NCBI GenBank assembly: GCA_026706845.1
Contig: JAPOXY010000267.1
Span: 1 to 37,804 of the forward strand
Reading direction: 5' to 3'
Length of the DNA: 37,804 bases
Source: Gemmatimonadota bacterium
GTDB lineage: Bacteria; Latescibacterota; UBA2968
The notes beneath the pieces were generated by a model. That model searched no databases and had not been told where the DNA came from. It saw only the letters and a program-made list of their open reading frames with translations. Below, in pieces: positions 9,673 to 20,501 of this stretch; the stretch's first letter is position 1, and each line of letters begins with the position of its first letter. The translations under genes were made by a program, and so were the position numbers.

Positions 9673-9715
9673 TAAAAAAGAGAAAATAGGAACCTTTGTT
9701 GACCAGGAGACTCAA

Positions 9716-19269: not shown

Positions 19270-19318
19270 ATAACACAATAAATTGTTAATAAACAAATAT
19301 TTATTGTGTTATTTTTTT
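19270..19318 (+). terminator. AT-rich hairpin and T-run after the QueD-like gene
   Basis: A perfect 14-bp stem (19270-19283 with 19299-19312; core AACACAATAAA / TTTATTGTGTT) with a 15-base loop, followed by a run of seven T. It probably terminates the 11472-19208 transcript. Because it lies 8 bp before the -35 of the sigma-factor promoter, it may also be a protein-binding site. Confidence 0.6.
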
Positions 19319-19319
19319 C

Positions 19320-19348
19320 TTGACTTATGAACAAATGTTCACTATATT
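19320..19348 (+). promoter_or_regulatory. strong sigma-70-type promoter of the sigma-factor gene
   Basis: TTGACT (19320-19325), 17 bases, TATATT (19343-19348), with transcription start near 19355 and a leader of about 83 bases to the ATG at 19438. A LexA-type site fills the spacer. Confidence 0.75.
19329..19340. promoter_or_regulatory. LexA-type operator (GAAC-N4-GTTC)
   Basis: GAACAAATGTTC is a perfect palindrome apart from its four central bases and matches the LexA box of Gram-positive and some other bacteria. It lies entirely between -35 and -10, where a bound repressor would block RNA polymerase. The match is observed; SOS control is inferred. Confidence 0.5.
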
Positions 19349-19437
19349 CTTGCTCAGCCACTACTGAGGCCATTTCACAGAAACAGACAGATGTTCCGCA
19401 CACGATATAGGACCTCAGAACACCATAAGGAGGAAAC

Positions 19438-20418
19438 ATGATTTCCGAAATGAACCAGCATCGCAGACAGGCTCTTCGCAAAGCTCCAGATCGCACCTCA
19501 CCCTATGTGGGCGATGAACCCTCTCTGGCCTATTACTACAAGGAGATCGAACGACATCCCCTGCTCACGCCAGACGAAGAAAGAGCACTGACAGAGCAAA
19601 TTGCTCTGGGCAATCTACCAGGTGCGAGTACTCGTACTCGGCGGGCAGGAGAGCACGCCCGCGAAAAGCTCATCACCAGCAACCTGCGCTTTGTCATTCA
19701 CGTTGCCAAAAATTTTAAGAATCAAGGGCTTCCCCTGGCCGATCTCATCAATGAAGGCAACATGGGACTTATGACCGCCGCTCGCAAATTCAAACCCGAA
19801 AAAGGTTACAAGTTCATCACTTACGCAGTCTGGTGGATCAGACAGAACATCCTCAAAGCCCTCGAAGTCCAAACCCGATCCATTCGAATTCCCGGCAATG
19901 TTGTCAACGACCTCAACAAATTGCGCAAAGTCGAAGCTGACCTGACTCAGCACCTCGACCGACAACCCGATGCCGACGAACTCGCCCGAGAAACCGATCT
20001 GCCCTTGAAAAAAGTCACGCACACCCTCGAATCGACTTATAACACCGTGTCGCTGGATACTCCAATGTGCGATGAAGCTACAAACTCCGCACCACGCGCT
20101 GTCACCCTGCAAGAAACCCTGTCGGACCCCCAAACATTGTCTCCCGAAGAAGCCTATATTCAAGACACAATGCACAATGATATACACAACGCGCTCAGTG
20201 CCTTGCCCGACCGCGACCGGCAAATTCTACATCTCTATTACGGTTTCAGCGACCCGGCGGAACGCTCCGAAGTCAGCAATTCAAAACCCGCGACCTATCA
20301 ACAAATAGGCGACAAACTGGGGGTAAGTAGAGAACGGGTGCGCCAACTCAAAGAGGAGGCACTCAATCGGCTGAGGCATCCTACCCACAGTAAACGACTT
20401 GCCACCTATTGTAGTTAA
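19438..20418 (+). CDS. RpoD-like (group 2) sigma factor
   Basis: A 326-residue sigma factor of the primary family without region 1.1. Region 1.2 is SLAYYYKEIERHPLLTPDEE (about 30-50). Region 2 spans about 75-145 and includes SNLRFVIHVAKNF, LADLINEGNMGLM and FITYAVWWIRQNILKAL, the -10 melting segment. Region 3 follows (IPGNVVNDLNKLRKVEADL). Region 4 (about 250-310) has LPDRDRQILHLYYGF and the GVSRERVRQLKEEALNRLRH helix-turn-helix. It is shorter than a housekeeping RpoD, so it is probably an alternative, stress-related sigma. ATG 19438 has an excellent AAGGAGG site. Its promoter carries a LexA-type box, suggesting induction by DNA damage. A terminator follows at 20471. Confidence 0.9.
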   Translation: MISEMNQHRRQALRKAPDRTSPYVGDEPSLAYYYKEIERHPLLTPDEERALTEQIALGNLPGASTRTRRAGEHAREKLITSNLRFVIHVAKNFKNQGLPLADLINEGNMGLMTAARKFKPEKGYKFITYAVWWIRQNILKALEVQTRSIRIPGNVVNDLNKLRKVEADLTQHLDRQPDADELARETDLPLKKVTHTLESTYNTVSLDTPMCDEATNSAPRAVTLQETLSDPQTLSPEEAYIQDTMHNDIHNALSALPDRDRQILHLYYGFSDPAERSEVSNSKPATYQQIGDKLGVSRERVRQLKEEALNRLRHPTHSKRLATYCS

Positions 20419-20470: not shown

Positions 20471-20501
20471 AGAGCGTCGGCGCGATTTGCCGGCGCTCTT
20501 T
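20471..20501 (+). terminator. rho-independent terminator after the RpoD-like gene
   Basis: Eleven-base stem AGAGCGTCGGC (20471-20481) with GCCGGCGCTCT (20489-20499), one T-G wobble, 7-base loop, followed by a short T-rich tract interrupted by G. Confidence 0.65.

Follow-up and report, generated by a model that had tools for sequence, protein, structure and literature searches.

The evidence assembled here points, with a probability that we put at about 0.9, to a LexA (SOS) operator in the promoter of a gene for a group-2-like sigma factor, in the interval between the -35 and -10 elements. The gene lies in a stretch of 37,804 nucleotides (hereafter the window) from a genome of 5.46 Mb and 96% completeness, which we call G000 and which its closest named relatives place in Candidatus Latescibacterota. 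Judged by the lexA and recA promoters, the predicted operator resembles the type that LexA uses in this genome, it occupies a position from which a bound repressor would block the promoter, and it is conserved upstream of 20 of 20 orthologues of the sigma gene. Coordinates of all features are collected in Table 1.

Table 1. Features of the sigma factor locus, with positions counted from the first letter of the window.
Feature	Position	Strand	Basis
-35 hexamer TTGACT of the sigma gene promoter	19320..19325	+	Sequence reading and promoter scan; TTGA invariant in 8 diverse genomes
Spacer, 17 bp	19326-19342		Direct sequence reading
Predicted LexA operator GAACAAATGTTC within the promoter spacer	19329..19340	+	lexA/recA promoters, orthologues and class members lacking the sigma factor
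-10 hexamer TATATT	19343..19348	+	Sequence reading and promoter scan; TATA at 1.73 bits per column
5' leader stem, CTGAGG (19364-19369) with CCTCAG (19413-19418)	19364..19418	+	Complementary arms in relatives
Shine-Dalgarno sequence AAGGAGG	19427..19433	+	Sequence reading
Group-2-like sigma-70 family sigma factor, 326 aa, complete	19438..20418	+	Pfam (regions 1.2, 2, 3 and 4); tree
Terminator-like hairpin 3' of the sigma gene	20471..20499	+	12-pair stem, 8 of them G-C
Predicted membrane-anchored coiled-coil protein, 270 aa	20622..21434	+	Adjoins the sigma gene in 17 of 18 loci examined

The first-pass annotation of this DNA had described an exact GAAC-N4-GTTC box held wholly within the 17-bp spacer of a near-consensus promoter, and both parts of that description hold on direct reading of the sequence; the promoter (10 of 12 matches) was the top of eight in the region by promoter scan, and the sigma gene, whose ATG is at 19438, starts 90 bp downstream. 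The same annotation had named a near match at 9690 as the only other one in the window. That site, GAACCTTTGTTG, does have a single mismatch, but it is one of 12 such sites, so the word "only" was slightly off. The box at 19329 is the only exact match. Such a box is expected 0.5 times per window by chance and appeared at least once in 40 of 100 shuffles, and exact and one-mismatch boxes together number 13 against about 15 expected by chance. The bare box is therefore not significant on its own, and the case depends on its context. A composite pattern of promoter plus box was found without mismatches only at 19320-19348, while even with up to 3 mismatches this pattern is expected 0.19 times by chance in the window.

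A comparison with the recA and lexA promoters of the same genome, which had been proposed as a check, came out in favour of the operator: both are near-copies of the sigma promoter over about 27 bp and carry the box at the same position (sigma, TTGACTTATGAACAAATGTTCACTATA; recA, TTGACGTATATACAAATGTTCACTATA; lexA, TTGACGGATGCACGAACGTTCACTATA). The exact form of the motif fared less well as a description of the operator. Exact GAAC and GTTC halves, as in the Gram-positive type, are present at the sigma promoter, but lexA (GCACGAACGTTC, with GCAC) and recA (ATACAAATGTTC, with ATAC) both deviate. The motif that describes the class as a whole is G[AC]AC-N4-GT[TG]C, with recA more degenerate. The imuA, imuB, dinB and dnaE2 promoters offered no further point of comparison or positive control, since no gene for a Y-family polymerase was found in G000. 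A single RecA is encoded in G000, and the LexA DNA-binding domain (LexA_DNA_bind) has a single match there, in a 209-aa LexA (L016:1066-1695, minus strand) with an S24 peptidase domain (TIGR00498, 231 bits; Pfam and NCBIfam matches over cut-off). A PDB alignment of this protein covers the RVAAGEP stretch with its Ala-Gly cleavage site, the GDSM serine and the TVKR lysine, as in a canonical LexA with its Ser/Lys pair. A box within one mismatch of GAAC-N4-GTTC is absent upstream of all six sigma paralogues in G000.

Conservation in relatives, another check proposed at the outset, was likewise borne out in a scan of the phylum, where promoter and box accompany all 20 sigma orthologues found, whose identity ranges from 94% to about 50%. 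Because the nine closest genomes hardly differ upstream of the gene, the number of independent orthologous promoters is only about eight. Across eight diverse genomes, column conservation averages 1.51 bits in the box, 0.86 bits in the rest of the spacer and 0.42-0.58 bits in the flanks. In some sigma promoters the half-sites covary, as in G010 and G012, where they read GCAC...GTGC. A scoring matrix trained on 7 distinct lexA sites and on no sigma sites gave the sigma promoters 23-37 bits; among 2.4 million positions, all sites of at least 18 bits were lexA, recA or sigma promoters or sites already found with the composite pattern, in DNA that was partly fetched by that pattern and is not a neutral sample. 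The putative spacer operator common to the lexA, recA and sigma promoters is, on this comparative evidence, under selection. One of the 18 recA promoters (G014, L264) appears disrupted, seemingly by an insertion between the box and the remainder of the promoter.

The sigma factor itself has a narrower range than the box. It is present in 20 of 21 genomes of two families (f1 and f2) of one order, and it is absent from the sampled members of two further families of the same class (f3, 1 genome; f4, 12 genomes). The lexA promoters of these 13 sigma-less class members nevertheless have a box at the same place (for example TTGACAAATGAACTAATGTGCAGTATA), which fits G[AC]AC-N4-GT[TG]C exactly in 10 and with one mismatch in 3. 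The box therefore goes with lexA and not with this sigma factor. Elsewhere in the phylum, nine genomes of families f5-f10 did not show the box at lexA; in two of them the upstream region is shortened by a contig end.

These distributions bear directly on other readings of the shared sequence. Since -35, spacer and -10 are nearly identical at lexA, recA and the sigma gene, and since positive autoregulation is conceivable, the sequence might mark promoters that this sigma factor itself recognises, with those three genes as its targets and no repressor site involved. We consider this very improbable. The box stands in the same spacer position at lexA in the 13 class genomes that lack the sigma factor, on which ground we rejected a sigma-recognition element; moreover, the conserved part of the spacer is a dyad whose halves covary in some promoters. 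A further count concerns promoters of the form TTGAC-N17-TAWNNT in the same collected DNA: of 92 distinct ones, 65 have no box, and the 27 that do (at least 6 of 8 positions) are lexA, recA, sigma or other sites that had already been recognised.

The box might instead serve another repressor, for example a LexA-like paralogue, that jointly controls lexA, and several relatives do have extra proteins with a LexA-type DNA-binding domain. In G000, however, the canonical LexA is the only protein with that domain, and the box stands at both lexA and recA, genes that are LexA-controlled in most bacteria; we regard a second repressor as just as improbable as reading by the sigma factor. A chance match is the least credible of all. 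Exact boxes are common enough for it, given the rate expected per window and the 48 places in the G000 genome against 29 in a reversed control (a background too unspecific for the exact motif to serve as a genome-wide regulon finder), but chance does not account for the same promoter position in every orthologue or for how closely the sigma promoter matches those of lexA and recA, and we ruled it out on conservation.

If the box is a LexA operator, its occupation by LexA dimers would keep RNA polymerase off the promoter in undamaged cells. Upon damage, RecA filaments would trigger the self-cleavage of LexA, and the sigma, recA and lexA promoters would be freed together because all three share the same architecture. 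The sigma factor would then accumulate and reprogram RNA polymerase toward a downstream sigma regulon. We infer from the placement of the operator, from which it follows logically, that this sigma regulon would come under DNA-damage control, and DNA damage in these uncultured bacteria would redirect part of transcription beyond switching on repair genes. A more specific proposal, which we offer tentatively and hold to be somewhat doubtful, is a two-tier SOS response, in which direct repression by LexA is limited to a small set (lexA, recA, the sigma gene and a few more genes) and the sigma factor relays the signal to a larger set without boxes, through a switch in polymerase specificity.

SOS regulons are commonly presented as a set of repair and mutagenesis genes under a single repressor. 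In the order described here, a dedicated sigma factor belongs to the predicted regulon as constantly as lexA and recA do, and several of the genomes have no recognisable Y-family polymerase: no IMS domain was found in G000, G007, G008, G009 or G011. To our knowledge, SOS-bearing genomes of 4-6.5 Mb without a Y-family polymerase are unusual. A partial literature search returned no report in which a sigma factor belongs to a LexA regulon consistently across a phylogenetic group, and no earlier description of a LexA operator of Candidatus Latescibacterota, for which this analysis supplies a predicted candidate. A cascade from LexA through the sigma factor to a second tier of genes becomes directly testable.

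Partial precedents for a LexA site at a sigma gene are available. In the E. coli rpsU-dnaG-rpoD operon, a LexA site lies upstream of the sigma-70 gene; there, the gene encodes the primary sigma factor and is part of an operon, whereas the gene described here encodes a specialised paralogue and is apparently transcribed alone. A closer likeness is the sigH-rshA operon of Corynebacterium glutamicum, in which a predicted LexA site overlaps promoter P4 and thereby links a sigma gene to DNA damage (PMC3489674). SigH is an ECF sigma factor encoded with its anti-sigma factor, P4 is one of several promoters, and the site overlaps the -10 element (PMC3489674); in contrast, the present case involves a group-2-like sigma factor, a box that fills the spacer of the only recognised promoter, and conservation across an order. 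SigG of Mycobacterium tuberculosis is likewise a DNA-damage-induced sigma factor, with induction in our case predicted from sequence, but we dropped it as a LexA precedent because it is induced through a RecA-independent pathway and not through LexA, and it reportedly does not control SOS or repair genes (PMC3776920). In Caulobacter, sigma use may shape the timing of the SOS response (PMC12700426).

Seventeen LexA motifs were known from reports by 2021 (PMC8565304). GAAC-N4-GTTC is that of Gram-positive bacteria such as Bacillus subtilis and Mycobacterium (PMC3323433). The system described here resembles the Gram-positive regulon in its near-identical palindromic operator, its canonical LexA with an S24 peptidase domain and its apparent control of lexA and recA (PMC3323433). 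It differs in that the host belongs to Candidatus Latescibacterota and is not Gram-positive, in that the looser G[AC]AC-N4-GT[TG]C is fixed in the promoter spacer, and in that a sigma factor is a predicted core member while no Y-family polymerase was found in the same genome.

The list of predicted regulon members comes from searches with the composite pattern and consists of boxes inside promoter spacers. With up to 3 mismatches allowed, each of the nine closest genomes gave 8-13 matches, against 0-3 for the reversed control. Exact matches in G000 number four, at lexA, recA, the sigma gene and a site 5' of a 109-aa ORF; in the distant genomes they are mostly lexA, recA and sigma, and G010, G015, G016 and G017 have nothing besides these three at 0 mismatches. 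(The recA of G016, at a contig edge, was recognised by its leader, and that of G011 by a neighbouring RNA-ligase-like gene.) On these matches, the predicted core of the regulon is lexA, recA and the sigma factor. The perfect LexA-type promoter 5' of the 109-aa ORF (L192:3510-3536) has equivalents at L201, L204, L247 and L262; the ORF belongs to no known family and is conserved in several genomes, in most of which a DegP-like protease gene follows it. An SplB-like radical SAM protein has a box in G000, G002, G014 and G017, as does a related one in G010, and these LexA-type promoters (L193, L203, L249, L252 and L256) come from several separate lineages. By its promoter this protein is a likely regulon member, and it is possibly a damage-repair enzyme. 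Weaker boxes at a topoisomerase IV-like pair and an RND efflux operon suggest that these, too, are likely to be further members. The promoter of the topoisomerase IV-like pair (L194, L250, L251 and L261) is conserved and has one good half-site only, GCACATAGAGTC or GAACAAAGATGC.

The assignment of the sigma factor as group-2-like follows from its full set of sigma-70 regions and its distinctness from the primary sigma factor. In the tree it forms a clade of its own with 100/100 support, apart from its paralogue L019, which falls with RpoD of Bacteroidales (92/95) and is likely the primary sigma factor of G000. Since the usual promoter-contact residues of regions 2.4 and 4.2 are sigma-70-like in the alignment (WWIRQ..L and SRERVRQ), the promoters read by the sigma factor are probably not far from standard ones. 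The gene is probably transcribed alone, given the terminator-like hairpin that follows it.

The leader stem sits just 5' of the ribosome-binding site. Its pairing is weak in each single leader, and the arms found at the same place in relatives differ in sequence yet stay complementary (CTGAAG with CTTCAG, and CCAGGGA with TCTCTGG). An Rfam search of the sigma leader gave no match. The recA leaders have a similar stem, GCGGTGCAG with CTGCGCCGT, followed by a GTGATCC stretch.

Beyond the nearest genus, the neighbourhood of the sigma gene is unconserved except for the gene of the coiled-coil protein. This protein matched no Pfam family over cut-off, its C-terminal LQA..DS motif is conserved in the alignment, and its gene lacks a LexA box. 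In several genomes, -35 sequences of the CTTGAC type are present 5' of this gene. We consider that the sigma factor may have this protein as a partner or its gene as a target. On the other side of the gene, a perfect 14-bp AT-rich inverted repeat (ATAACACAATAAAT with ATTTATTGTGTTAT, 19270-19312) is followed by six T residues and lies just 5' of the -35 element. Both of its arms are altered in G007, and it may serve as the terminator of the PTPS-like gene upstream.
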